From Oligoflexales bacterium (GTDB taxonomy: Bacteria > Myxococcota_A > UBA9042 > DTJE01): 41,331 nt of DNA. The stretch covers positions 1-41,331 of the forward strand of contig DUVQ01000169.1 in assembly GCA_012840965.1 (NCBI GenBank), read 5' to 3'. Position 1 is the stretch's first letter. Every line of letters starts with the position of its first letter. The position numbers were made by a program, and so were the translations under genes. The notes beneath the pieces are model-generated. The model was not told where the DNA came from and made no database searches. It was given only the letters and a program-made list of their open reading frames with translations. This document shows positions 3,106 to 21,086 of this stretch, one piece after another.

Positions 3106-3228
3106 ATAAATCGTACTTTCAATTCCGGAATTGAAGAGTCCTGAAAAGTGATATTTGTTGTTGACACGAGGAGTTCAATCGTCCGAAAATTGCTCGTCTA
3201 CGCCTTATTGGCGCATGGGAGGAATCTT

Positions 3229-5856
3229 ATGAAGTTTAAGGTTGCGGTTGCTGTTTTGGCACTGGCCTCGATGGCCGCGTGCGAAGGGCTTGATGGCGAA
3301 CAGGGCATCGCCGGAGAAGCCGGAAAATCCTGCACCGTTATCGACAATCAAGATGGGACCAAGACTCTGTCTTGCGAGGACGGTACATCGGTAACCATTT
3401 ATGACGGCGCCCAGGGCTTGATTGGACCAACTGGCCCCCGTGGCGAAGGTCAACCAGGTAAGGATGGTGTCGATGGGGAGAAAGGTGATCCTGGTGAGCC
3501 CGGTGAAGACGGCCTCCCCGGCGAACCCGGTGCTCCTGGTGAACCCGGTGCTCCTGGTGAACCTGGCGCCCCTGGCGAGCCCGGTGAACCTGGCGCTGAT
3601 GGTGAACCCGGTCAACCTGGCCAAGATGGCACATCTTGCACCGTAGCTGACAACGGCAATGGCTCCAAAACCATCTCCTGCACCGATGGCACTTCTGTTA
3701 CCGTGTATGATGGCGCTGATGGTGTCCCTCTCAATGTTGTGAACTTGGCTGTCGAAATGCCTGCCAAACTGTTCATGACCATCAACAATATCATCATCGA
3801 CGGAAAGCCAGAGGTCCAATTCACGATTACTGATGAATTCAATCGTGGAGTGGTTGGTCTGCCAAGCAATGCGATTCGCTGGATTATGGCGAAGTTGGTC
3901 GATGATACTGCCACTAAGACCACCTATTGGGTGGCGTACAACCGTAATGCCAATACTGGTATACCCACCACCGATTCTGGTGGGACGTTTATTGACAATG
4001 GTGACGGAACCTATGTTTATACCTTCCGTACTGATGTAACCAACGTGGCCAACCCTGTGGAAGTGATTTGGGATCCGAATACTACAACCAGACTTAGTGG
4101 CCAATTAAGCGGCAACGTGAACGGTAGGCCCCTTCCAGGCTTGAACTTCGTCAAGGACTTTGTTCCAAACGGTGGAGCCGTCACTCTGACTCGCGAAGTT
4201 TCAAGCACAGCCGCCTGCAACGAGTGTCATGACAAGATGGCCTTCCATGGCAGCCGTACTGAAATGGGTTACTGCGTCACCTGTCACTCCCGTGGTGTTG
4301 AGGACACATTGGGTAACAACGTTGATATGGGCTACATGATTCACGCTATCCACGGTGCGTCGGTTCGTGCTGCTAATGGCGGACCTGAGTATGAGATCTA
4401 TTCGTCATACTGGAGGAAAACCTATAAGTTTGGGGATATTGTCTATCCCCAAGCTGTAACCAACTGCTTAAAGTGCCATGACGCTGCAGTGACATCTGAG
4501 GGTGGTCACTGGAATGACAAGCCCACTTATGCTGGTTGTAAGGGCTGTCACGAAGGGGCTGCTGGATGGACCGGTCACGACAACATAGCACAGCTTACCC
4601 CCACAACCAACTGCACTGGCTGTCACAGGCCGGCTGGTAATAAAAGCGCCATGAAATCTCACCCAAGTGTGGACAACTCGCCAAACGCTGTTGGCGTGGT
4701 CGAAGGAGCTGCTAATTTTGTTTACAACGTGAAGAGTGCAGTTGTAAATCAGGACAATAGCCTTGATATCGTCTTCCAGATTCTCAGGGACGGCGAATCA
4801 ATGGACCTGGTAGATCTACCAAGTGATCTGACTGGTGGCCCATCCTTCTTGCTGGCTTATGCAATGCCTCAAGATGGGATTGCCGAGCCTGTTGATTACA
4901 ACAACTTGGGTAGGACCGCGGCTCAGCCTTCCAGTGTTTCCTTGGCTAATCTTCGGAGTGGCACGCTTGGTAGCATTGTCGCGGATACCGAGGAGGGCTT
5001 CTATCTTGCCAAGGTAAACGCTGACAATGCTTTCCCAGCTGGTGCCACCCTGCGTGCAGTTGGTCTCCAAGGCTACTTTACTCAGGCTTTGACTGGTGGT
5101 AGTACGCTGGCTCGACACACACCAGCTTCGCACGTTGCAGTCACTGGTGACGCACAGCGCCGTGTGGTTGTTGATGATGCCAAGTGTGCTAACTGCCACG
5201 AGTGGTACAAAGGCCACGGTGGAAACCGCGTTTACGCAGTTGGCGTATGTGTAATGTGTCACGTACCAAACCTGTCAACCAGCGGTGCGAGCTCTAATAT
5301 CGCCAACTTGAAGCCAGCAATGCGTGATGCACTTGCGGCCAATGGTTACGATCCAGATAACCCCTTGACCTATCCGGAATCTACGAACAACATGAAGGAA
5401 ATGACTCACGCGATCCATGCTGCTTCTGTGAGAACCACCCCATACGAGTTTGTTCGTAACTCTGGAACTCGTGGCATCAACTACTACAACTTTGCAGACG
5501 TTGGATATCCTGCCAAGCCTAACAATTGCTTGATGTGTCACAAACCTGGCACATTTACCAGCGTTCCAGCCGGTGCCTTGGCCACCAACTTTGTGACTGA
5601 CAATGGAGCCATTAATACCCCAGATGATGCCGACGCAGCACGTGAGACTGTTCCAAACACGATGGATGAGGTTGTTTCCCCGTTCGCATCATCCTGTATC
5701 GCATGCCACGACACACCGTTGGCCGCAGCGCATATGGCTCAAAATGGCGCTTTTGTTTATGGAGCAAGGGGCGACATGGGCAACTCGGTTGAAACATGTG
5801 CCCTCTGCCACGGCCCTGGCCGCTCTGCAGACATCGTCACGGCTCACGGTTTGTAG
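3229..5856 (+). CDS. OmcA/MtrC-like decaheme c-type cytochrome lipoprotein with N-terminal collagen-like (Gly-X-Y) stalk
   Basis: ATG at 3229 with GGGAGG upstream; MKFKVAVAVLALASMAAC lipobox; GEPGAPGEPGAPGEPG repeats; ten CXXCH motifs (CNECH, CVTCH, CLKCH, CKGCH, CTGCH, CANCH, CVMCH, CLMCH, CIACH, CALCH). Confidence 0.9.
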   Translation: MKFKVAVAVLALASMAACEGLDGEQGIAGEAGKSCTVIDNQDGTKTLSCEDGTSVTIYDGAQGLIGPTGPRGEGQPGKDGVDGEKGDPGEPGEDGLPGEPGAPGEPGAPGEPGAPGEPGEPGADGEPGQPGQDGTSCTVADNGNGSKTISCTDGTSVTVYDGADGVPLNVVNLAVEMPAKLFMTINNIIIDGKPEVQFTITDEFNRGVVGLPSNAIRWIMAKLVDDTATKTTYWVAYNRNANTGIPTTDSGGTFIDNGDGTYVYTFRTDVTNVANPVEVIWDPNTTTRLSGQLSGNVNGRPLPGLNFVKDFVPNGGAVTLTREVSSTAACNECHDKMAFHGSRTEMGYCVTCHSRGVEDTLGNNVDMGYMIHAIHGASVRAANGGPEYEIYSSYWRKTYKFGDIVYPQAVTNCLKCHDAAVTSEGGHWNDKPTYAGCKGCHEGAAGWTGHDNIAQLTPTTNCTGCHRPAGNKSAMKSHPSVDNSPNAVGVVEGAANFVYNVKSAVVNQDNSLDIVFQILRDGESMDLVDLPSDLTGGPSFLLAYAMPQDGIAEPVDYNNLGRTAAQPSSVSLANLRSGTLGSIVADTEEGFYLAKVNADNAFPAGATLRAVGLQGYFTQALTGGSTLARHTPASHVAVTGDAQRRVVVDDAKCANCHEWYKGHGGNRVYAVGVCVMCHVPNLSTSGASSNIANLKPAMRDALAANGYDPDNPLTYPESTNNMKEMTHAIHAASVRTTPYEFVRNSGTRGINYYNFADVGYPAKPNNCLMCHKPGTFTSVPAGALATNFVTDNGAINTPDDADAARETVPNTMDEVVSPFASSCIACHDTPLAAAHMAQNGAFVYGARGDMGNSVETCALCHGPGRSADIVTAHGL

Positions 5857-8030: not shown

Positions 8031-8954
8031 TTAGTGGTTGTCAGCACTTAGGCCAAAGCGCTCGTCGTGAGCCCCAGCCCCTTCTGGTTCAACATGTACT
8101 ACAACATCATAAACAGATTGGAGGTCACCTTTGATTGCCTGCTCAACAGCGGTCGCAATTCTGTGAGCTTCTTTCACTGTCATTTCAGCCTTTACTTCAA
8201 TATCAAGGTCGATCATCAGGTTAGAGCCTAGCCGTCTAATCCTGCATCTGTGTGGATTCATAGCCCCTGGTACTGAAGCTACGGCAGCAAATACAGCCAC
8301 ATAAAGCTGATGCTCAGCCCCGCCATCCATTAGTTCGGTGTTTGCGTCCTTGAAGATTTCATAGGCATTTTTGATGATCCACAAAGCTACTAGGGCGGCC
8401 AGCACACGATCCAGCATCGGTATACCCAACAAGAAAGTGATGCCCAGGCCCACTAGGATTGAGACTGAGGTCAGGATGTCCATCTGCATGTTCTTCGCGT
8501 TGGCCAGCAGCATGGGCGAATTGGCTCGCTTACCATAGCGGCGTTGTGTAGAGGCTAAAATGAGCTTTCCAACGACGGAAATTCCTGTGGCAAGCAGCGC
8601 AAAAGTCGACGGCATTTCATGTTGGGTGTTTTTGATAAGACCAGAAATGGCACCCCACAGAAGCTGGGCACCCGCAAAGAATATGACGAATGACAAAACT
8701 GTTGTCGCAACTGTTTCTGCTCGACCATGTCCATAGGGGTGCTTACGATCACTCGGCTTTGCTGCAACCACGGCGGCATACAAGGTCATTAACGAGATTA
8801 CAACGTCGGTGCTGGAATCAATGCCATCACCCAAGACCGCAAGACTATTACCAAAGTAGCCCGCACCCAGCTTCAAAAGGGCCAAAATGGAGTTGCCCAC
8901 TATGGCAATCCAGGATGCCCGTTTCAACAAAGCTTCGCGTGACTCTTGGTGCAT
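8031..8954 (-). CDS. Cation diffusion facilitator (CDF) family transporter
   Basis: KRASWIAIVGNSILALLKLGAGYFGNSLAVLGDGIDSSTDVVISL...KHPYGHGRAETVATT: CDF TM and HPYGHGR motifs. Start at the internal Met (8954) abuts the stop of the upstream gene (8956); the longest ORF starts at 9005. Confidence 0.9.
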   Translation of the reverse strand: MHQESREALLKRASWIAIVGNSILALLKLGAGYFGNSLAVLGDGIDSSTDVVISLMTLYAAVVAAKPSDRKHPYGHGRAETVATTVLSFVIFFAGAQLLWGAISGLIKNTQHEMPSTFALLATGISVVGKLILASTQRRYGKRANSPMLLANAKNMQMDILTSVSILVGLGITFLLGIPMLDRVLAALVALWIIKNAYEIFKDANTELMDGGAEHQLYVAVFAAVASVPGAMNPHRCRIRRLGSNLMIDLDIEVKAEMTVKEAHRIATAVEQAIKGDLQSVYDVVVHVEPEGAGAHDERFGLSADNH

Positions 8955-8955
8955 A

Positions 8956-11391
8956 TCAACCGTTTCCAATTGGGCTAAGTTCTCCAATTTCCAATCGTTT
9001 TGCAAGGATGTCGGCAGAAGCAGTGGCGTCTTGTGACCATCTAGGTAGCTTTTTCAGCATGTCAGCGGCAGCTCTTAAACTGTTTTCAGCCGCAGACATC
9101 GCGGCAGCAGAGGTCATTATGCTTTGACTGTTACGATTATGCTGGGGTAGCAAAAATCGGCATGAAACGTTGTCTTTTAGAGCAAGTCTGGCAAAGTCTT
9201 CAATTTCATGGAGATTGGCCAAAAGGATTACCATGCTGTAGACGATTTCTCCGTCAAACTTTCCTTGGGATTTTGCGGCTTGCAACGCCTCTAAATTCTT
9301 GCGTATTGTGGTCCAAGAAACCCCACGATTTACCATTTCAAATGTCTTGGGTGAGGCTGCATTCAAGCTAACAGTAATCGACTTAAAGGGCAGTTTAGGA
9401 AGTGACTCAATCCACTTTAGCGTCAGTAGAGAGCCATTTGTAACCAGCCCAATAGATGGCTTTAAATCAAGGGTAGCCAGCCTTTCAATCCACTGGCGAA
9501 AGTATGGCGAAGTCAAAGGCTCGCCACCGTTTATGTCCACTGTAGTGCCATTTTTTATCCACTTTTCGATGTCATTCCAAAACTCAGGCGAGCGCTGGTC
9601 GTCGAGAGTGCCCTTTTCACCACAGTCACACATCAGGCAGTTATAGTTGCAAAAAGAAGTAACTGGGATCCCAATGGAAAGTGGGGCGTGATCAACTTCT
9701 ATTTTGCCGTTGATCATCGCCTGTGCGACTTCTAATTGCCTTTCTAAATTGCTATCCGCGGTCAACACAAATCTGGCTAGCGTTTCCTGGCCACTTACCA
9801 AAATTGGGCAAGTGGACCTGCAGCCAGGTGGATGTTGGCTTGATACCATTTCTTTACGATATTCCTTGAAAAGGTTGTCTTTCCAAAGGGTTGAGGGGTT
9901 TGAGTTTTCAGGGGCAAAATGGCGCGACGACATGTAGTCTGCACAGCATGGACCAAAGGTGTTTTCATCGTGCAGCTCAAGACGGGTCCAAGGTCTGGTA
10001 CACAAAATAGCCGGCAAATTATCAGCCCCAACCAATTCCCCAAGGGATATCTGCCCCCGTCCCTGCCCCTGCCCCCGCCCCAGCACCTCCAAAGCCCTGC
10101 GTCGCCACCCCTCAATCAACGGAATAGGGTGCAAATTCTGGATCCCAAACCGCCTAGCATATGGAGCCGGCACCCCAAGACAAGTGTCATCCTGGGCACA
10201 GTTTTTACAGGTTAATGACTTCACCCAAGGCTTAGAAAAATCTTCATAACCGGTTTCTTCTTTAGAAATTTTAGGGCGATTAACCATCATTGCTCGCTGA
10301 TCGGGCGTCACAAAACACGGTGGTATTGACGCATGGGTGCTGCTGACCAAAGGCGCCATTGGAAGGCCTGATCTTGCAGCAGTTTCAACGGCCAACTCAA
10401 GCAGTGGGACAAGCTCTTCATATGGTATCAGCCATTGGTCTGACTCTGGACGATGGGGAGGGCACATCAGGACTGAAACATGCAGTTCTGGAAGGGGCAG
10501 GCCCATCAGCAATTCAGGCAGATTTCGCGCTAAAACAGCGAGATGTGCAGCATTTCTGGAACCAACGACAACATTGACAATCACACGATGCCCAGCCCCA
10601 AGGAGGTTTTTCAAGCCCTTGATTGCAAGCGGCATTTGTCCCTTTGTCTGGGTGATTTCATCGTACAAGTGCTCGTCAATCGAGTGTAACGAGACAAACC
10701 ACAAAAGCCTGGGGTCTGGTTGTATAGCAGGGGCAGATTTTGCAAATGAAACAGCATTCGTCTGGACTTGGACTCCTTCAACTTCGCGCGAAGCCAATAT
10801 TTGGCGCAAAACATCGACCCAATCTTTTCGCAGGGTTGGCTCACCACCTGTAAGGGTAATCAGGCTTCCTGGAAACTCAGTTATTGCAGCTTGGATGCCG
10901 GTTTGCAGCTCTGCATCCGCTGGCTCGGCGCAGTCAGGTGCGCTACAAAAGGGGCAGTTTTGATTACAAACAGGTGTAAGACGCAACAAAATCTGGGCCT
11001 TTGTGGCACCAGTGGAATCATGCGCCATATCCACGCTGGCAAAAGGAAATCTACGTGAAAACTCCCGAACGGCCATCTCGGGGCCACCTGCAGTCCAATC
11101 AGTCGGAAGCTTTTCTTCAAGCCTTGTCAAAATGGCGATTGCTAGGTTAATCAACGACATCCAATCGCCTGTATTTTCTTGGAAAATCTTGTATCTATAA
11201 GCGAAGTTTTTGGTTGATTTGTAACAGGGTTCTGTCGAATCAGGGCGTGACATATAAATGCTAGCGCCATTGTCACCAAGCTCAAAGGTCAAAACGCCAT
11301 GTTTAGCGAAAATCGAGCCTACTGGAACACCAGCTCGCCGCATCAGTTCTGCCAAGCGAGAAAGCCAGGAAGTTTTGGCAGAATCGTTCAT
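8956..11391 (-). CDS. Double radical-SAM protein (two CX3CX2C domains with a SPASM-like Cys region between)
   Basis: CNQNCPFC with LTGGEPTL; CNYNCLMC with INGGEPL; intervening CTRPWTRLELHDENTFGPCCADY...HPPGCRSTCPIL resembles SPASM/twitch Cys patterns. Confidence 0.88.
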   Translation of the reverse strand: MNDSAKTSWLSRLAELMRRAGVPVGSIFAKHGVLTFELGDNGASIYMSRPDSTEPCYKSTKNFAYRYKIFQENTGDWMSLINLAIAILTRLEEKLPTDWTAGGPEMAVREFSRRFPFASVDMAHDSTGATKAQILLRLTPVCNQNCPFCSAPDCAEPADAELQTGIQAAITEFPGSLITLTGGEPTLRKDWVDVLRQILASREVEGVQVQTNAVSFAKSAPAIQPDPRLLWFVSLHSIDEHLYDEITQTKGQMPLAIKGLKNLLGAGHRVIVNVVVGSRNAAHLAVLARNLPELLMGLPLPELHVSVLMCPPHRPESDQWLIPYEELVPLLELAVETAARSGLPMAPLVSSTHASIPPCFVTPDQRAMMVNRPKISKEETGYEDFSKPWVKSLTCKNCAQDDTCLGVPAPYARRFGIQNLHPIPLIEGWRRRALEVLGRGQGQGRGQISLGELVGADNLPAILCTRPWTRLELHDENTFGPCCADYMSSRHFAPENSNPSTLWKDNLFKEYRKEMVSSQHPPGCRSTCPILVSGQETLARFVLTADSNLERQLEVAQAMINGKIEVDHAPLSIGIPVTSFCNYNCLMCDCGEKGTLDDQRSPEFWNDIEKWIKNGTTVDINGGEPLTSPYFRQWIERLATLDLKPSIGLVTNGSLLTLKWIESLPKLPFKSITVSLNAASPKTFEMVNRGVSWTTIRKNLEALQAAKSQGKFDGEIVYSMVILLANLHEIEDFARLALKDNVSCRFLLPQHNRNSQSIMTSAAAMSAAENSLRAAADMLKKLPRWSQDATASADILAKRLEIGELSPIGNG
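10051..10084. repeat. In-frame GGGGCAGGGACGGGGGCAG-type hexanucleotide array inside the radical-SAM gene
   Basis: + strand ctgcccccgtccctgcccctgcccccgccccag, encoding (minus) GRGQGQGRGQ. Confidence 0.75.
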
Positions 11392-11397
11392 CTTCAG

Positions 11398-12783
11398 CTA
11401 GTCCCCTAAAGGTGCGCCACTTAAACCTTGCCAGTATCGATTGGTCCAGTGCGCCACCTCTGACATACGTAAAGCGTTGGCCATGTTGTCTATAAACGGC
11501 AAGACGCCTGCAAATCCCAAAAATGGTCTGTCTGCAAGACAATGGGTATGAAAGGAAGGAAAACCAAACTCAACAGAGGCCAGACCTTCTTGGGCAACCA
11601 TGCCGATGCCTGCCGTGTTTGAAACTAAAAGGGCTAGCCTATGCTCAGTGATCCGCTCACGCATCAACTTCAGCATCGGTTTTAGCCTTGGATAGATAAG
11701 CAGATGCGTCTGCGGTTCAAGCACCTTATCTAAGCCTGCAGCCTGCGCACGCGGATTGGTGATAATTGCAAAATCTAGTTGCAGCCCCAGCAATCTGGCT
11801 GTTTGGGCAAAACCCTTGGCTAGGTGGGGGTCTCCAAGATAGCCTGCTCGGCGATTTTGAAACACATATGGAATCAAAAACTCTAAAGATGGCACGATTT
11901 TAGCCAATTCCTGGTCAATAAATGCTTCGGCCTTGTCGCTACAGCCAAATTCTGCGCCAAGTTGCCTTACAAACTGTTCAGTCGCCTCCAACCCAAAGGG
12001 CAAGTCGCAGTGAATCAGCCTAGCGCCTGTCCGCTTGGCCAGCCAAGTCGCGGCTTTCTTCCCATAAGGCAACGAAATTATGGCTTCGGCATCCTTTACC
12101 TTTGATAAATCGGCAAAACTGTCACCACAAAGCCATATGGAGACAGGGTCAAGGTCCAAAGCCGCCAATATGCGCTTGAGCTCTGCCACGTTTGCCCGCT
12201 GGTCGCCTTCGTTACGGTCGTACAAGTGCCCAATAATGGCCACCTGCCTTGGCTTTGGGGTCCCTCCAGATAAATCTAGTTGCCTAGCCAAAGATACTAA
12301 CACTTCTTGGTATCCATCCATCCAGTCACCAGACAGCGATTTTCCTTGCACATGGATCACCGTTTTGCCTGTATCCTGCTGGATGCCGCGACAAAGCCGC
12401 TCATAGTCCGCACCAGTGATTACCGCCATCGGCATGGACGTCATGAAAACACCACCAACAACTGGGTGGCTGGCGATCTTTTTCAGGGTCGTTTCTATCG
12501 CGGCTTCCCTGGATTTCGCCATAAAGTGGGGATGTAACGCGGTGTTTGCTATCCTGTGATGACCTGAAACGCTGGTAAGGGTTGAAAGCCAGTCATGATT
12601 TCCTTGGACATACTGCGATTTCAGGTGGGTGCAGTCAGGTCCCTCAACCATGGTAAAGGCGTCTTTTATGGCATTAGTGGCAAGATAAACGCCCACCATA
12701 AAGGTGTACATGATTCTTTGGCTGTGGTCCAAAGATGCTGCATCTTCTGGCTTTGTAGGTTTGCTCATCTGGTTACTCCACAC
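11398..12783 (-). CDS. Nitrogenase component-1-like (NifD/NifK/BchN superfamily) subunit, 461 aa
   Basis: MVEGPDCTHLK resembles GPxGC; SGHHRIANTALH; PMAVITGADYERL resembles VIGDDLE; VIHVQGKSLSGDWMDGYQEVL resembles NTPGFxGxxxxGY. Tight operonic spacing with neighbours. Confidence 0.75.
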   Translation of the reverse strand: MWSNQMSKPTKPEDAASLDHSQRIMYTFMVGVYLATNAIKDAFTMVEGPDCTHLKSQYVQGNHDWLSTLTSVSGHHRIANTALHPHFMAKSREAAIETTLKKIASHPVVGGVFMTSMPMAVITGADYERLCRGIQQDTGKTVIHVQGKSLSGDWMDGYQEVLVSLARQLDLSGGTPKPRQVAIIGHLYDRNEGDQRANVAELKRILAALDLDPVSIWLCGDSFADLSKVKDAEAIISLPYGKKAATWLAKRTGARLIHCDLPFGLEATEQFVRQLGAEFGCSDKAEAFIDQELAKIVPSLEFLIPYVFQNRRAGYLGDPHLAKGFAQTARLLGLQLDFAIITNPRAQAAGLDKVLEPQTHLLIYPRLKPMLKLMRERITEHRLALLVSNTAGIGMVAQEGLASVEFGFPSFHTHCLADRPFLGFAGVLPFIDNMANALRMSEVAHWTNRYWQGLSGAPLGD

Positions 12784-14620
12784 GCAACCCTTCTGGGGTA
12801 CGGGCCAGCCACTTTTGGTAACGCCGGTAAAAGGGAGTTTTGCAGATTCCTATGATTCTTTCTAGGGTGCGAATCGCCCCTGCGTGGCCCATCTCGAATA
12901 CCTGCAGTGAGAGACGATTCTTTCCAGCTTCGCTGACACGCCAGTCAAAGAAATGGTAGGACAAGACAGCATCTGCTTTAGATTCATTTAGTCGCTGCCT
13001 CAATAGTTCAAAGGAATTAAAGGCTTTTATGATGTGGCGTTGGGGGTGTTCAAACTGGGCCAAGACCGTTTTCGCGGCCTCGCGTGCAGCCTCTCGTTGG
13101 TCAACCTTTATAAAGATATCCAGTCCAAAACCAGCCTCTTCCAAGAATGCAATCAAAGGGATACCCCAGGTTCTTGATGGGTAGGTCAAAAGCGCCAGTT
13201 CCTGGACACGCACAACAATTGCGATACGGTAGTTTGCCGCTTGTTCGCGCAGAGCCTGCCATCTTTCCAAAAGCTTGGCCTGTGCGTTTTCCAACACTTC
13301 ATCAACGTCGTTTTGCTGGTCAACCGCCTTCGCTACAGCTTTTACCCACCTATTAGTTGCCTCGAAACCAAAAGGAGCCTCGGGAGTTATTATGGTTGTC
13401 CTGGTCTCAGAGGTCAGATGCTGGTAGTGATTGTCCCACACGTTATTTGGGTACATCACCGAAACGGCCGCCTTTGGCAGCGCCCTGATCCGATCCGAAC
13501 TAAAAGTTGGAATGAGGTGGGCGTTTACGGTTATTCCACACTGCGCCAGCAATTCCTTTAGCTCGGCAACTGGCTCGTCCTCCGCAAATCCAATCAGATT
13601 GACCATATTGGGATCTGGGGCAGGTGCCTGTGCCTCGTATGTCAAGCGCCTTGCCTCAAGCAAGTCTTTGAAGACATTGAACATGCTAAATGGCGTCACT
13701 GTCAGATAAACCAAGGAAATGCCACTTTCTTTGGCTGTTTGCCTGACAACAGATTCAACATCTTCTCCAGTAACCATCGGGACGCATGTATTGCTGAAAA
13801 AGGTAATTTTATCCTTGTCTTCCGTTGTGGCTACCACATGGTCCAGAACTTCCCTCACTAGGCCAGGATTGCCCATAATGACGTCATGTTCGTTCAGGTC
13901 CGTAGTCACCATGCTGTTTACGCCAGGGTCCAGCGGCGTTTTATCAATCGGCAGATCAAAGCTTTTGGTCCTGTTGTCCCACGGATACTCGACCAAGGAG
14001 ATCAAGGGAGCCACCCCGTGGGGGGAAACTTGCAGGCACTCGTTATCACAATGCTGCACAAACCGGAATGACCCGGACAAATCGACGCTATCTAACTGGC
14101 CACGCTGGATCTCACCAGACGCGAAAAACTCAGCATACGCCCCAGCACCTGCCCAAGAATTCAACAAGTCCTCTACTTGGCGGCCCAAATACTTACGGAT
14201 TGTTGGGAGCTGCGAAATCTCAGGATCCTGCTGAATCTTTGCCAGCAGGTCCTCAAGGGTAGCGTCTCCAAGGCGCGTTGGAGCATGCAGACTGACCGCA
14301 GCATCTACGCTTTCATCTATTGTCTCGATCCCTTTGTATGACAACGCCAGATTTTTTGTAGCGACCCAAGCTCGCTCGCCAGCCTTGTTGTCCTTTATGG
14401 TCAGCACCATGCTGGGAGCTTTTGGCTGCGGCCCTAACAAAACCTCAATGTGGTCATCGTACCACACGACAATCTGGACCTTTAGGTGGTCTGGAGCCTC
14501 TTTTAGCCCCAACAGATGCTCAAATGCAGCTCTGCTGGCCTCCCCGCCACGAATACGCAGGGTATCTATCGCCTGTTCTTCAGGATCCAGCGCTACAGGT
14601 ACAGTATGGTGAAAGGACAT
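12773..14620 (-). CDS. Nitrogenase component-1-like (NifD/NifK superfamily) subunit with extra N-terminal domain, 615 aa
   Basis: VTTDLNEHDVIMGNPGLVREVL resembles TxLxExDxVFG; FFSNTCVPMVTGEDVESVV resembles TTCxxxVIGDDLE; CDNECLQVSPHGVAPL. Overlaps the 461-aa gene by 11 bp. Confidence 0.78.
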   Translation of the reverse strand: MSFHHTVPVALDPEEQAIDTLRIRGGEASRAAFEHLLGLKEAPDHLKVQIVVWYDDHIEVLLGPQPKAPSMVLTIKDNKAGERAWVATKNLALSYKGIETIDESVDAAVSLHAPTRLGDATLEDLLAKIQQDPEISQLPTIRKYLGRQVEDLLNSWAGAGAYAEFFASGEIQRGQLDSVDLSGSFRFVQHCDNECLQVSPHGVAPLISLVEYPWDNRTKSFDLPIDKTPLDPGVNSMVTTDLNEHDVIMGNPGLVREVLDHVVATTEDKDKITFFSNTCVPMVTGEDVESVVRQTAKESGISLVYLTVTPFSMFNVFKDLLEARRLTYEAQAPAPDPNMVNLIGFAEDEPVAELKELLAQCGITVNAHLIPTFSSDRIRALPKAAVSVMYPNNVWDNHYQHLTSETRTTIITPEAPFGFEATNRWVKAVAKAVDQQNDVDEVLENAQAKLLERWQALREQAANYRIAIVVRVQELALLTYPSRTWGIPLIAFLEEAGFGLDIFIKVDQREAAREAAKTVLAQFEHPQRHIIKAFNSFELLRQRLNESKADAVLSYHFFDWRVSEAGKNRLSLQVFEMGHAGAIRTLERIIGICKTPFYRRYQKWLARTPEGLRVE

Positions 14621-14622
14621 TG

Positions 14623-15444
14623 TCAGCCCTCGTGATCCCTAAGGAATGCAAACACTTCGTCGTCAGTCATAGGTGTCGGTAATGGCACTTCCTGTGGGTC
14701 AATTTTAAGCAAAGCTTCGCCAAGTTCCTTGAACGCCAACGATGCAGGTGCATCTGGCTCATACTCCAGGATGGTTCGCTGGTGCTTTTCCGCCTCTTGG
14801 ATGCGTGGATCGCGCTCAACTACCGTTATCACTTTGGTGTTTAAACGGTCCGCGAAAGCGTGCAGCAGATTTACGTTTGCCTCGTTGGAACGCAGGTTCA
14901 CAACAAGCCCAGCAAGACACACCCCATTACTGCGGTAAATATCAATGGCCCTAGCAATATTGTTGGCTGCAAAAATGGCCATGGGTTCTTCAGACAGGAC
15001 GATTAACACTTTCTTCGCAAAGCCATCGCGCAGCGGCGCCGCAAATCCGCCACAAACGACGTCTCCCAAGACATCGAACAGGGCTACATCATAGCGTCCA
15101 GACTGCAAAAGCTGCATTTCATCCAGGGTCTCGATCATTCTGGCAACACCACGGCCTCCACAACCAACTCCTGGGGTAGGCCCACCTGCCTCACAGCAGT
15201 CGATTTCATAGCGGCCAGTAGTCAGGATCTCCTCGGTCCCCATCGCCTCGGGGTCTTCCCGCAATACGTCCAAAACTGTTCGAATTTCCTGGCCTTCTTT
15301 TAATAAGCGCATGGCCGAATCATGTTTTGGATCACACCCGACGTGAAGTACTTTATTTCCGTTTTGCGCATAGTGAACGCTAAGGCTGGTGGCAACCACG
15401 GATTTGCCAATTCCACCTTTACCGTAGATTGCTATCGTTTCCAT
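14623..15444 (-). CDS. NifH/BchL-like ATP-dependent iron protein
   Basis: METIAIYGKGGIGKSVVATSLSVHYAQNGNKVLHVGCDPKHDS; both [4Fe-4S] cysteine contexts present: PGVGCGGRGVARMIE and FDVLGDVVCGGFAAPL. Confidence 0.93.
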   Translation of the reverse strand: METIAIYGKGGIGKSVVATSLSVHYAQNGNKVLHVGCDPKHDSAMRLLKEGQEIRTVLDVLREDPEAMGTEEILTTGRYEIDCCEAGGPTPGVGCGGRGVARMIETLDEMQLLQSGRYDVALFDVLGDVVCGGFAAPLRDGFAKKVLIVLSEEPMAIFAANNIARAIDIYRSNGVCLAGLVVNLRSNEANVNLLHAFADRLNTKVITVVERDPRIQEAEKHQRTILEYEPDAPASLAFKELGEALLKIDPQEVPLPTPMTDDEVFAFLRDHEG

Positions 15445-15479
15445 TACTTCTCCTGGTGCTAGTCGATTTAACTAAGCTT

Positions 15480-15540
15480 CCAAACGGGCAAATCAATATT
15501 TCAGTTTCCTTTGGGGCGTTTGGTCAATAAAACTGCCCGT
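15480..15540 (-). promoter_or_regulatory. Candidate structured leader upstream of the NifH-like gene
   Basis: TGCCCGT (15534-15540) is complementary to ACGGGCA (15484-15490); CGTTTGG (15517-15523) is complementary to CCAAACG (15480-15486). The two pairings overlap. Confidence 0.35.
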
Positions 15541-15605
15541 CACAGTATCCATTTAGCAAAAGCCCACGTCAACCCGTGATAAATTAAGCCATTCAAAATT
15601 AATGC

Positions 15606-18539
15606 CTAAGACTGGCGAGATCTTTCAGTTAGAAGCTGTCCGATAAAATCCCTAAATGATCTGAACCCTCTCCATTGCGCGGGGCTTCTGATGGGAGAGT
15701 CTTCTGGATGGCGCAGCGTCACCCTGCCAATTTTGGCAAGTGCTGCCGCTTGATTAGGTCGAATATCAACAATGATATCCAGTGGTTCGTCGCTGTCTTC
15801 CAAGCCAACATGGATTTCTCCTGGGCTTAAGGTCACTATCGTCACAATCTTATACCCCGAGAATGACCTGTCTTGGACTTGCTTAAACACACGCGCCAAA
15901 AAAGCCCCTGCCCTGACGGTTGCTGCATCGATCTCCTGAACTTCTGTGGTCGTGTTGGCAGTTCCTAGTGCATGGGAATTGGCCCGCTTTGCCTCAACCA
16001 TGGCCTGCCAAAAGTCTCGTTGAAATACGTGCTTGTGCCACCAGACAAAGACCTGGCCTGACAGTGGGATAAAAGGCTTCCCCTCGCGATACAAAGTGAC
16101 GCATTCTCGTTCGATCACAATCTCATCTGCCAGCCCAACATAATTGGCCAAAGGCGTCCTAAGTGAAGTTTTACCAACTTGACATCTGAAGCGGTAATGA
16201 GAGTCTGCGTTTGAGGCTTTTGCACTGCCAATTTCTGACCCCGAGCCGGCCAAGGGGTCCTCAAGTGGAATCAGCTCGACCATGGCCCCCTGTTCATCAC
16301 TGAATAGCAGAGTTGGATGCTGAAGCTGTGCTATGTGGCGTTCAAACTGCTCAGGTGCCACCTCTCTTTGGCGTTCCAGCACAAATCTGGCCCTACCCAG
16401 TGCGACATTGCAATTCGCTTCACAGGGAATGTATTCCAGGCCCACAGAGGCTGGATGCAGCTCAAATGGGATTTCATCAGGCGCTGCTATTCTTCGTGTG
16501 ATGTGCATCCAGAAGGTTGAGTCTTGTAGGGCCGACGCTTCCAAAGCCATAGCCTTTGAGCAGCATTCTGGATAGCCAAGGAGCTTTCCTATCTCAGAAA
16601 TAGTGTCCTGTCGTTCTTCAATGACGATATCCGTATCGATCCCAGTTTGCGCTAATTCGTTCAGGTGCAGGGTTAATTCAATGGCCCTGGATACTTCCTT
16701 TGGGTTTTTGCCAAAAAAGGCCTCGTAAAAACTAGTATCGGGTCTTTTGACCAGCCTCAGATTAGGCAGTGAATCGCACGCTTTCCACTCGTTCACCATC
16801 TGGGATTCGATTGGCTCAATCTTGCTGACTGGCTTCACATCGAGGATACACTCAAGTGGAACTTTCAGCTCCTTGTCACTTCCGCGTATAAAGTCCTGGG
16901 GCGAAGGGGGTGGAGGTTCATTAGATGGGTGACTAATATTGGGTTTTGCTACGAAGCGGCGTCCCTCGTCTAATAAATCTTCCACGGAAGACACGGTCTT
17001 CAAGAGGTTTTGTCTTATCACAGCCATCTGCACTATGTGTCTAGCCAAATTGATGACTGAATTTCCCGAAGACCGACAATTCAAGGCCAGCTCAGTAACT
17101 ACGGTTGTCAATTCATCAAAGTCGGCTGGTACTCTGTCGTTTTCGATGCGAAGAAGAACCTTGCTTACGTTGTCCAAAACCGGATTGGTAAACCGCCACG
17201 GTGCTTCATGGTCGTAAAGATTGAGCGAGGCGGTGTCAAGGAGGGGGTCGTCATAACTTTTGGTCAGCAGTTCATCTTGTTTCGCACGCCAGTACAGGGG
17301 TAGGGTTGGATAAAGGCGCAGTCGCCCCGATAAGAGTTTCCCCGTGATGTCTTCCAGTTGAAGAAGCCTAGTTATCGATAGGTTAAGCACCAGTTCTTCA
17401 GGCTCAGTCCATGGCGTCATGGTGATCAGGCTTAGTCCACCATGCCTCCTGAAACCAAAGTGGTTAGGCCATTGGCGTTCTAGCTGAAAGAGAATCCGAA
17501 GCGCCTTCAGATTGGTTAAACCATCAAATCCTTTGTTAAGTCTGTCCAATTCTTTGGAGCTAAAGTTCTCGATACCAATCAGGCTCATTTCGATTCTGTG
17601 GGTACTGCCCTTCAGCTCAGGAAGCGCCCTTTTGAAATCCTCAAACCGCCAGCCCAACATGTCAGAGCGGCAGTCAAACAAAAAGTCCGAGCCTGGTAAG
17701 CTTGATTGAACAATGCTTTTTACAGTTGATTCAAGGTGTTTGATAGGGGCCTCGCCCTGCATTCGAATCATCAGACGTTGATTAGTTGACGGACATGTTA
17801 GGGCTATTGCCTCTAGCTGGTCTCGTACCGCTTGATTCGGATCCACCGCCTCCCAGACCGATTTATCACTCTCTGGGCGGGTACAAAAGGCGCAGCCTCC
17901 GCGTCGAATCAAGGCGCCTTGGTGCTGCTTGCCAAGAAAAGGGTTCGAAGAAAAGGGCCTGTTGTACAGGCAGGGATCTCCCGCAATCAAGAAGGGCAGG
18001 GGATTAGTTGTAGACGCAGCCGTATTTCCAGGAATCCAGCCATAATCTGGGATCTGACCAGCCAGATTTGTAAGAAGACGGACGTTGTCATCTGAATCTG
18101 GAAACGCAGGGCCGTCTTCCCAAAGGCTGGCAATGGGTTTTGAGTTTCGACTGTCTGCTGGGCCAGCATGTAGGATCTGACAGTCAGGCGCTGGTAGTGA
18201 CAAGTCCTTAAGAAGATTAGTAGATGGGGTAAGGCCAAAAAGAATATGGGTGGGATTCCAGCTATCCAAAAGCCGCCTAAGTACTGCAGTGTCTTCTTGA
18301 TTTAGCGAGACTCCAACGGATTCAAATTGGAGCATGTTGGCAGGATCCACGCCAAATCTCACCCATTGAACTTCGTGACTCTTCTTGAGTCTCCCCTTAA
18401 TGAAGGGAAACCACTCAGCACGGTGGAAGCCAGCGGTGGCGGCAAATTCGACTAACAACACTCTAAAAACCAAAGATTTTTCCCCGCCAAAAGCACGGTT
18501 TACGATGATAGAGCATGCTATTAGAAACTGCAAAACCAC
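15606..18539 (-). CDS. Degenerate B12-binding/radical-SAM-like protein with GYPECC (DUF483-like) region, 977 aa
   Basis: N-terminal VLLVEFAATAGF...; RRGGCAFCTRPE; radical-SAM-like IEMSLIGIENFSSKELDRLNKGFDG...LITMTPWTEPEELVLNL...RLRLYPTLPLYWRA; GYPECCSKA...EYIPCEANCNVALGRA. True start is probably internal (the paralog suggests TTG near 18473). Confidence 0.7.
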   Translation of the reverse strand: MVLQFLIACSIIVNRAFGGEKSLVFRVLLVEFAATAGFHRAEWFPFIKGRLKKSHEVQWVRFGVDPANMLQFESVGVSLNQEDTAVLRRLLDSWNPTHILFGLTPSTNLLKDLSLPAPDCQILHAGPADSRNSKPIASLWEDGPAFPDSDDNVRLLTNLAGQIPDYGWIPGNTAASTTNPLPFLIAGDPCLYNRPFSSNPFLGKQHQGALIRRGGCAFCTRPESDKSVWEAVDPNQAVRDQLEAIALTCPSTNQRLMIRMQGEAPIKHLESTVKSIVQSSLPGSDFLFDCRSDMLGWRFEDFKRALPELKGSTHRIEMSLIGIENFSSKELDRLNKGFDGLTNLKALRILFQLERQWPNHFGFRRHGGLSLITMTPWTEPEELVLNLSITRLLQLEDITGKLLSGRLRLYPTLPLYWRAKQDELLTKSYDDPLLDTASLNLYDHEAPWRFTNPVLDNVSKVLLRIENDRVPADFDELTTVVTELALNCRSSGNSVINLARHIVQMAVIRQNLLKTVSSVEDLLDEGRRFVAKPNISHPSNEPPPPSPQDFIRGSDKELKVPLECILDVKPVSKIEPIESQMVNEWKACDSLPNLRLVKRPDTSFYEAFFGKNPKEVSRAIELTLHLNELAQTGIDTDIVIEERQDTISEIGKLLGYPECCSKAMALEASALQDSTFWMHITRRIAAPDEIPFELHPASVGLEYIPCEANCNVALGRARFVLERQREVAPEQFERHIAQLQHPTLLFSDEQGAMVELIPLEDPLAGSGSEIGSAKASNADSHYRFRCQVGKTSLRTPLANYVGLADEIVIERECVTLYREGKPFIPLSGQVFVWWHKHVFQRDFWQAMVEAKRANSHALGTANTTTEVQEIDAATVRAGAFLARVFKQVQDRSFSGYKIVTIVTLSPGEIHVGLEDSDEPLDIIVDIRPNQAAALAKIGRVTLRHPEDSPIRSPAQWRGFRSFRDFIGQLLTERSRQS

Positions 18540-18593: not shown

Positions 18594-21086
18594 TCATGAA
18601 GCTGTTTTTGGGTAGGACAGAATCTGTTTAATGACGTCCTTAAGAGAGTTGAATGCACTCCACTGCGCCGTGCTATTGATTGGGGATTCTGGAGGGTGAC
18701 GGAGCGTCAGCTTACCAATTTTTGCTAGTGCCGCTGTCTGGTTTGGCCTGATATCAACTATGATATCAAACGGTTCACCACTGCCCTGTAGCCCGATGTG
18801 AATCTCTCCTGGGCCGGCGATAACTACACTCCCAATCTTGTATCCAGCGAATGATCTTTCTTGTAGCTGCTTAAACAAACGTGCCAAAAAATTGGTTGCC
18901 CTGACGGTTTTGGAATCGACTTCCTGAACTTCCGTAGTAGTCATAGCACTTGTAGCTGCATGGGGATTGGCCATTTTTGCCTCAAGCATGGCCTTCCAAA
19001 AATCACGCTGAAACACGTGTTTATACCACCAAACAAAGACTTGGCCGGACAGTGGAATGAAAGGCCTACCCTGGCGATACAATGTGACACGCTCACGACC
19101 AATCGAGATTTCATCAGCCAGCTTGATATAATCGGCCAAAAAGATTCTCTCAGAAATCTTACCCACTTGAAATCTGAAGCGGTAACAGCACTCCGTGCCC
19201 GGCGATTTTTCGTTGCTATTCTCTGGTGCCATAGTTGAAACTGTTAAAGGGTCCTCAAGCGGAATCAGTTCGACCATGGCCCCTTGCTCATCACTGAAGA
19301 GCAAGGTTGGATTCTGAAGTGGTTCTATGTTGTTCCTAATTTTCTCGGGAGCAGTCTCTTCCAGACGTTTGAGCAATAATCTGGCTCTCTCAAGAGCAAC
19401 TTCGCAATCTGCTTTACAGGGAATAAATTCAAGGCCAATCGAGGCTGGATGTAGTTCAAATGGGATTTAATCAGGCGCTGCGACTCTACGTGCAACGTGC
19501 ATCCAGAAACCAGAATAACTAAACGGATTAGTCTTAAAAGCCAATGCCTTTGAGCAGCATTCCGGGTAGCCAAACAGCTTTCCTATCTCGGCTACGGAGT
19601 TGCGTTGCTCCTGTGAAATACTATCAGCATCGGGTCTGGCCAGCTCGTTCAAAGGAAATGTTAACTCAATGCTTCTGCAAACATCTTGAAGGTTTCTGCC
19701 GAAAAAAGCATCGTAAAAACCGTTGTCAGGCCTTTTAACCAGTTTGAGGTTAGGCAACTGTTTACATGCTTCCCACTTGTCCAACTGCTGAGGTTGAATG
19801 TATTCGATTTTGCTAACTGGTTTTACATCAAGGATGCACTCAAGTGGTAGTCTTAGTCCACCCTCAGCGCCGCGTAAAAAGTCCTGGGGTGTTGGAGCAG
19901 GGGCCTCATTGTACGCGTGACTGACATCTGTTTTTTCTACGAAGTTTTGTCCTTCTTTCAATAAATCTGTTGTGGAGAGCTCGGTCTGTAAGAGATTTTG
20001 CTTTATGACAGCCATCTGGACTATGTGTCTGGCCAAACCAACGAGCGAGTGTCCTGAAGATCGACATTTTGAGACAAGCTCAATCACTTTGGTTGTCAAT
20101 TCATCGCGGGCGGCGGGTACATCGTGATTTTCCATGCGAAGAAGGATTTCAATTACATTATCCAACACCGAATTGGCGAACCGCCACGGTGCTTCATTGT
20201 CGTGGTGATTGTGTGGTGTGGTATCAAGTGGTCCTTCATCATTGAGCTCAAGCAGACTTTTTATCGAAAGGTCTAGCACCACCTCTTCTGGCTCAGTCCA
20301 TGGTGTCATGGTGAGCAGGCTTAATCTGCCATGCCTCCTGGGAACAAAGTGCTTGGGCCATTGGTGTTCGAGCTGGAAAAGAACCCAGAGCGCCTTCAGA
20401 TTGGCTATGCCGTCAAATCTGTTGTTGTGTTCGTCCAACTCCTTGGAGTAGGAGTTCTTGATTCCCGTCAGGCATACTTCAATTCTGTGGGAAGAGCCCT
20501 CAAGTTGGGGAAGTGCCCTCCTGAAATCTTCAAATCTGCTCACCAGCATGTCTGGGTGGCATTCGATCAACAAATCTGAGCCTGGCAAGTCCGATTCCAC
20601 GATGTCTTTTAAAACGGCTTCAAGGTGGTTAATAGCGGATTCACCCCGCATTCGAATCACCAGACGCCGGCCATCTGTTTTGTATGTTTGGGCTAACTCT
20701 GAGGCCGCAGGTTCATCGACCAAAAGGCCGGCAGTAGGGGCTGAGTTTGTACTGTTGGTGGGGGCGGCATGAATGATCTGGTAGTCAGGTGATGGTAAAG
20801 ACAGGGCTTTAAGGAGAGATGTGGAGGGGGGCAAACTAAAAAGGATATGGGTAGGGTGCCAGCTATCTAAAAGCCCGCTAAGTGCTGCTGTCTCTTCATG
20901 ATTCAGCGAGACCCCGTCTGATTCAAACTGGATCATCTCCGTAGGATCCACGCTGAATCTAGCCCATTGAACCTGATGATTTTTATTAAGCAATTCTTTG
21001 ACTATGGGAACCCACTCGGTGAGCTGAAAATCAGCTGTGGCGGCAAAATCAACTAGCAAAACTCTAAGAACTACCAATTTTTTCAA
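18594..21086 (-). pseudogene. Tandem paralog of the 977-aa gene, interrupted by an in-frame TAA (19467-19469) and lacking two internal segments
   Basis: The 539-aa and 260-aa ORFs are in the same frame. Readthrough gives VARRVAAPD*IPFELHPASIGLEFIPCKADCEVAL, matching ITRRIAAPDEIPFELHPASVGLEYIPCEANCNVAL of the intact copy. Confidence 0.88.

Follow-up and report, generated by a model that had tools for sequence, protein, structure and literature searches.

What reaction is carried out by a nitrogenase-like reductase whose genes lie back to back with that of a double radical-SAM (S-adenosylmethionine) protein? The question is raised by a locus on the minus strand of a contig from an Oligoflexales bacterium, within a stretch of 41,331 nucleotides that was analysed as a whole and is here called the window. 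The genes nflH, nflD and nflK, for a NifH-like protein and two NifDK-like subunits, are followed directly by rSAM2x, while the gene for a cobalamin-type radical-SAM-like protein, D483, lies 161 bases upstream of nflH, and that for a CDF-family cation transporter downstream. Few functions have been assigned within the nitrogenase superfamily, and the newer ones, in F430 synthesis and in methylthio-alkane and isethionate reduction, have revealed unexpected reduction chemistry. What we find is a real and conserved reductase of nitrogenase-like type, with a radical-SAM partner that looks dedicated to it, and this reductase is outside every characterised clade tested, as judged by NCBIfam cut-offs and by the NflH and NflK trees. 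The residues predicted to hold its cluster suggest a reductase apparently free of the iron-molybdenum cofactor (FeMo-co) and very probably not fixing nitrogen.

The reductase and its cluster site

A check of the open reading frames of the locus found all of them at the coordinates given in a preliminary description of this DNA, and the protein families named there were recovered by Pfam and NCBIfam. On the minus strand, as for all features of the locus below, nflH (14623..15444) encodes a NifH-like ATPase and electron donor of 273 amino acids (PF00142, E 1.9e-80) with the P-loop GKGGIGKS and the conserved cluster cysteines C95 and C131. The NifD-like subunit of 615 amino acids (nflD, 12773..14620) matches PF00148 (2.6e-32) over residues 231-555 only, its extra N-terminal region of about 230 amino acids having no Pfam match, and the NifK-like subunit of 461 amino acids (nflK, 11398..12783) matches the same family (1.3e-49).

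Against all curated NCBIfam equivalogs of nitrogenase, dark-operative protochlorophyllide reductase (DPOR), chlorophyllide a reductase (COR) and CfbC, the scores fall far under the cut-offs. NflH reaches 279.5 for the NifH equivalog (cut-off 394.35) and 269.3 of 402 for CfbC; the DPOR equivalogs give 198.5 of 345.15 (BchL), 45.2 of 419.95 (BchN) and 41.9 of 490.35 (BchB). Unlike CfbCD, this locus also has a K subunit. The NflH tree unites NifH, MarH and a Treponema homolog in a clade (99/94) and leaves the protein of the window outside it; the latter groups with members of its own family (98/81, nine rows), and a joint set with Elusimicrobia paralogs is supported at 94/69 only and takes in BchL. 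The NflK tree, made by a quick method and with its references on long branches, sets 58 Myxococcota, Elusimicrobiota and own-genome paralogs apart from NifK, NifN, BchB, BchZ and the Treponema protein (support by the SH-like approximate likelihood ratio test, SH-aLRT, 99). Reference sequences of CfbC and Isr are absent from the trees, CfbC being judged by its NCBIfam score instead. A likeness to MarBHDK is seen in the best PDB sequence matches of NflD, 9d9u and 9fmg, both titled 'Nitrogenase', which we take to be Mar structures. On scores, trees and cluster residues, membership in the nitrogenase, DPOR, COR, CfbCD, Mar and Isr groups was rejected, in keeping with the earlier proposal of a reductase different from those of known pathways.

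For the cluster site, NifD, NifE, BchN, BchY, NifK, NifN, BchB and BchZ served as the reference alignment, and conservation was counted in 93 NflD and 98 NflK sequences. Nitrogenase (NifHDK, Vnf, Anf) has six P-cluster cysteines, three per subunit, whereas here only three are kept, two in D and one in K: C195 of NflD (14036..14038) aligns with NifD C88, C279 (13784..13786) with NifD C154, and C51 of NflK (12631..12633) with NifK C95, the NifN cysteine and the cluster Asp of BchB. Both NflD cysteines occur in every homolog having the site, and C51 in 92 of the NflK sequences; the other three are missing, the position of the third NifK cysteine being mostly Pro in NflK homologs. A candidate fourth ligand, proposed as a guess from its spacing and conservation, is E170 of NflD (14111..14113), which stands 25 positions before C195, matches NifD Cys62 by spacing and is mostly acidic among NflD homologs.

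The FeMo-co ligand Cys275 of NifD aligns with Pro391 of NflD, and NifB was not found above its cut-off in the genome, the best score with TIGR01290 being 19.7 bits (cut-off 343.65). With half of the P-cluster cysteines and the FeMo-co cysteine missing, and NifB not found, NflDK is expected to act in the manner of DPOR and to reduce an organic substrate. The likeness to DPOR (BchLNB) and COR (BchXYZ) extends to an ATP-driven H component, a heteromeric catalytic component, the absence of a FeMo-co ligand and a simple cluster, in NflDK a predicted one; the ligands differ, with three cysteines in BchN and an Asp in BchB set against two cysteines in NflD and one in NflK. IsrBHDK resembles the present system in its H-D-K operon, its essential radical-SAM partner and its missing FeMo-co ligands, but has one cysteine in D and three in K (PMC11423573), and its radical-SAM partner is of another type; the D subunits with three cysteines listed in the same paper (PMC11423573) also differ from the 2+1 pattern of NflDK.

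The radical-SAM partners and their distribution

The double radical-SAM protein (rSAM2x, 8956..11391) matches PF04055 in two stretches (1.2e-31) and consists of an N-terminal domain, radical-SAM 1 (CX3CX2C at residue 142), a twitch-like linker and radical-SAM 2 (CX3CX2C at residue 581). Its N-terminus is homologous to the N-terminal domain of NflD (about residues 22-125; 14246..14557): hhalign scores the pair at 40.9, with five control profiles at 15.7 or below and 30 column shuffles at 14.4 or below. AlphaFold gives a confident alpha/beta model of this shared domain (pLDDT 87.6, pTM 0.79), for which a fold match was not found in the PDB at E<=0.001.

The association of this domain with the reductase is reflected in the distribution of both. 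Among 379 genomes sampled from the phylum, NflD relatives are present in 23, of which 11 belong to the family of the window, and the N-terminal rSAM half carrying the shared domain occurs in 11, all of which have NflD of this type (Fisher p 2.7e-15, not corrected for kinship). G009, G012, G005 and G004 repeat the order H-D-K-rSAM2x, as do other family members whose contigs extend far enough, and the core also recurs beyond the family. At four loci (L051, L052, L053 and L094) a gene of its own, 38-111 bases upstream of nflH, encodes the N-terminal half of rSAM2x; the first of these, with the order D483, rSAM, H, D, K, rSAM, contains the same parts as the window. The radical-SAM partner co-occurs with the reductase in homologous loci, and neither NflH nor NflDK falls inside a characterised clade among those tested, the two points on which the preliminary description was to stand or fall. 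A scan of GTDB species genomes for NflK yielded 74 loci; uncultured members of the Myxococcota/Deltaproteobacteria and the Elusimicrobiota account for nearly all of them, and a Spirochaetes metagenome-assembled genome (MAG) for one. By sequence rSAM2x resembles MoaA and SPASM/twitch enzymes, and its halves also score against HxsC, N_Twi_rSAM and SkfB. An anti-phage role was rejected, viperin matches being limited to the generic radical-SAM domain.

Further copies of the reductase genes are found in the same assembly, where eleven PF00148 proteins stand against two NifH-like proteins above cut-off. Six NifDK-like loci (contigs C43, C62, C84, C119, C120 and C169, corresponding to L020-L024 and the window) with two NifH-like genes suggest that one NifH serves several NflDK complexes. 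In a paralogous NflD-NflK cluster (L020:9143-17211 and L030:272-8628) the radical-SAM protein keeps the N-terminal domain without radical-SAM 1, and an OPT-family transporter follows this cluster in both genomes of the genus; next to the paralogous C84 locus, an OPT transporter was seen in this genus alone. A MAG titled Anaeromyxobacter dehalogenans (L043, DYKK01000095.1) carries NflHDK 56-74% identical to those of the window and matches G007 of the window's family, a likeness by which the name may be a misassignment. On the Treponema saccharophilum plasmid pTS1 (L116:6001-9174) a NifH-like gene and two nitrogenase-component-1 genes lie among ABC transporter genes, including one for an iron ABC permease.

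The protein upstream of the reductase genes, D483 (15606..18539), is cobalamin-type radical-SAM-like and has a C-terminal DUF483 region (GYPECC; DUF483 match 1e-6). It had been described as degenerate, wrongly so, because its unusual cysteines C190, C216 and C219 (CX25CX2C) are invariant, as CX(22-26)CX2C, in ten sequences (that of the window included) from Myxococcota and Elusimicrobiota, which also share radical-SAM-like GIE...NKG and TPWT motifs. D483 as a decayed protein was accordingly rejected. The expanded motif replaces the CX3CX2C of cobalamin-dependent radical-SAM enzymes, and the AlphaFold model of the D483 core (pTM 0.83) has OxsB as its top Foldseek match in the PDB (E 2.1e-9, probability 1.00). 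On this predicted fold D483 is taken to be a conserved relative of OxsB and other cobalamin-dependent radical-SAM enzymes, from which the cysteine motif and the DUF483 region set it apart. The truly degenerate element is a decayed tandem copy of D483 upstream (18594..21086, two open reading frames, the three-cysteine segment missing), outside the region first singled out.

The single operon originally proposed, with tiny gaps or overlaps between its genes, stands for the H/D (14623/14620), D/K (12783/12773) and K/rSAM (11398/11391) junctions, and for rSAM/CDF (8956/8954) if the internal in-frame ATG at 8954 is taken as the start of the transporter gene (8031..9005; PF01545, 3.8e-44). Its extension to D483 is less sure, given the 161 bases between that gene and nflH. 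As for the transporter, which had been counted as a part of the system, its linkage to the operon is found only within the window's genus; it was rejected as a functional part and is kept as a genus-level neighbour. Elsewhere in the window, on the plus strand (3148-5853), is the gene for a protein of 902 amino acids with collagen triple-helix repeats and OmcA/MtrC-type outer-membrane multiheme cytochrome domains.

The proposed reaction and its rivals

We consider it fairly probable that the product of the locus is a low-potential reductase of the nitrogenase superfamily, driven by ATP and made of two components, which works in the manner of DPOR/COR and not of nitrogenase and acts with its radical-SAM partners on the same organic substrate. 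Family assignments, conserved linkage, residue conservation, the shared domain and the lack of NifB above its family cut-off form the basis of this reading at the level of sequence, and from them we infer the cluster ligation, the direct reduction, the order of steps and the nature of the product. The NflH dimer would pass electrons from its [4Fe-4S] cluster to NflDK, coupled to ATP hydrolysis, and NflDK would hold a simple cluster at the P-cluster position, ligated by NflD C195 and C279, NflK C51 and probably a carboxylate such as that of NflD E170. NflDK would have no FeMo-co-type cofactor, so that the organic substrate would be reduced directly in its cavity. The same substrate would be modified, before or after reduction, by rSAM2x and, in this genus, probably also by D483, the N-terminal domain that NflD and rSAM2x have in common serving to direct them to one substrate or carrier.

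The product would most likely be a specialised metabolite or cofactor. In related clusters elsewhere, more radical-SAM proteins are joined by a radical-SAM family that binds B12 and by carbamoyltransferases, neighbours that would point to specialised metabolism, carbamoyltransferases being typical of natural-product tailoring. Carbamoyltransferase-family proteins were seen near Elusimicrobia and Myxococcota NflDK clusters at L074:12313-15816 and, as relatives of these, at eight other loci.

Several observations weigh against this picture of a DPOR-like reductase with its own radical-SAM partners. Enrichment with NflD is seen for the C-terminal half of rSAM2x and for the D483 core as well, but the former is also present in genomes without NflD, and the latter in many such genomes, so that only the N-terminal rSAM half looks dedicated. 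At 14 of the 37 NflK loci with full flanks there is no radical-SAM match within 6 kb. The TM-score of D483 with OxsB is modest (0.42), and the region of E170, the putative fourth ligand, aligns poorly with NifD. Finally, with a genome 95.7% complete, the failure to find nifB counts heavily without being conclusive.

A bolder form of the same reading would make of NflHDK, rSAM2x and D483 a biosynthetic machine in which reductase and radical-SAM enzymes act on a single substrate, bound to a carrier or to a domain, by means of one shared recognition domain of no known fold. Its cluster of 2+1 cysteines and a carboxylate would be new among the nitrogenase-like enzymes compared, and its product would be a specialised metabolite or cofactor of an unknown class. 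This we offer tentatively, as a possibility.

A more specific form of the main reading, with a macrocycle of the corrinoid, porphyrin or chlorin type as the substrate of NflHDK and with side-chain chemistry performed by the radical-SAM proteins, seems to us somewhat doubtful. The characterised relatives DPOR, COR and CfbCD do act on tetrapyrroles, and the predicted fold of D483 resembles that of a cobalamin radical-SAM enzyme. HemB and HemC are encoded in the genome and HemB in most of the family, which would allow such a substrate, but HemB was not detected in two family members with NflD-like proteins (G002 and G008, one of them only 86% complete), and tetrapyrrole genes were not recognised in the annotation of the window or at the scanned loci, where not every neighbour was covered. 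There is also the precedent of Isr, which lacks FeMo-co ligands and acts on a small non-tetrapyrrole (PMC11423573).

Modification of a ribosomal peptide, bound by the shared N-terminal domain and acted upon by both NflHDK and the radical-SAM proteins in the manner of ribosomally synthesised and post-translationally modified peptides (RiPPs), appears unlikely. Recognition domains common to several enzymes are a feature of RiPP systems, and one N-terminal domain does occur here on two different enzymes; it is, however, an alpha/beta fold without a PDB match, so that no known recognition element was identified. Likewise, while the rSAM halves score against the peptide maturases HxsC and N_Twi_rSAM, and against SkfB, the small-molecule enzyme MoaA scores equally, and a conserved small precursor-like open reading frame was not found within 5 kb of the core at 21 mostly close-clade loci.

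It is improbable that the system instead matures a metallocluster used elsewhere in the cell, with NflDK as the scaffold in the manner of NifEN and rSAM2x as the maturase in the manner of NifB. NifE is the highest NCBIfam model for NflD, the asymmetric cysteine content is NifEN-like, and the genome has several paralogous NflDK pairs with two NifH; against this, rSAM2x is MoaA- and SPASM/twitch-like, NifB was not detected, and a candidate target, an enzyme with an unusual cluster, was not identified. Least probable of all is the cleavage of C-S or other small-molecule bonds for nutrient scavenging, which shares with Isr and Mar the documented B-H-D-K gene logic and adjacent radical-SAM gene (PMC11423573), but is argued against by the position of NflH outside the NifH/MarH clade, by a cysteine pattern unlike that of Isr, by the missing FeMo-co cysteine and NifB where Mar is reported to use nitrogenase metalloclusters (PMC12552129), and by the failure to identify sulfur-transport genes at the locus.

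The wider clade and its meaning

The system belongs to a large nitrogenase-like clade spanning Myxococcota and Elusimicrobiota, and this clade is probably the published 'group VI'. Paralogs from groundwater Elusimicrobia (Meheust et al. 2020, PMC7785019) are so called, and described as potentially tetrapyrrole-modifying, a further point for a macrocyclic substrate, in papers citing that study, one of which credits it with multiple nifDK-like copies per genome. Elusimicrobia NflK relatives share the NflK clade of the window. From their organism names we assume the Elusimicrobia MAGs considered here to be the published group VI set, whose features are reported to include radical-SAM neighbours and several copies per genome; both are seen here, radical-SAM genes adjoining many of the copies. 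The window represents a Myxococcota subclade that differs by its fused double radical-SAM protein, by the domain common to this protein and NflD, and by D483 with its DUF483 tail. 'Undescribed', the term initially applied to the system, is therefore too strong, because the wider clade includes these probable group VI genes; that wider kind was probably described in 2020, functionally uncharacterised, and the present system is probably a variant new to it.

An uncharacterised branch of the superfamily is thereby narrowed to a compact unit of four core genes, one shared domain and a distinctive cluster-ligand pattern, and is tied to a radical-SAM partner by both co-occurrence and gene fusion. 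The analysis also brings to light a conserved family of radical-SAM-like proteins whose cluster motif is expanded to CX(22-26)CX2C. Ultimately, the products of the expanded nitrogenase paralogs in Elusimicrobiota and Myxococcota could be revealed through this locus.

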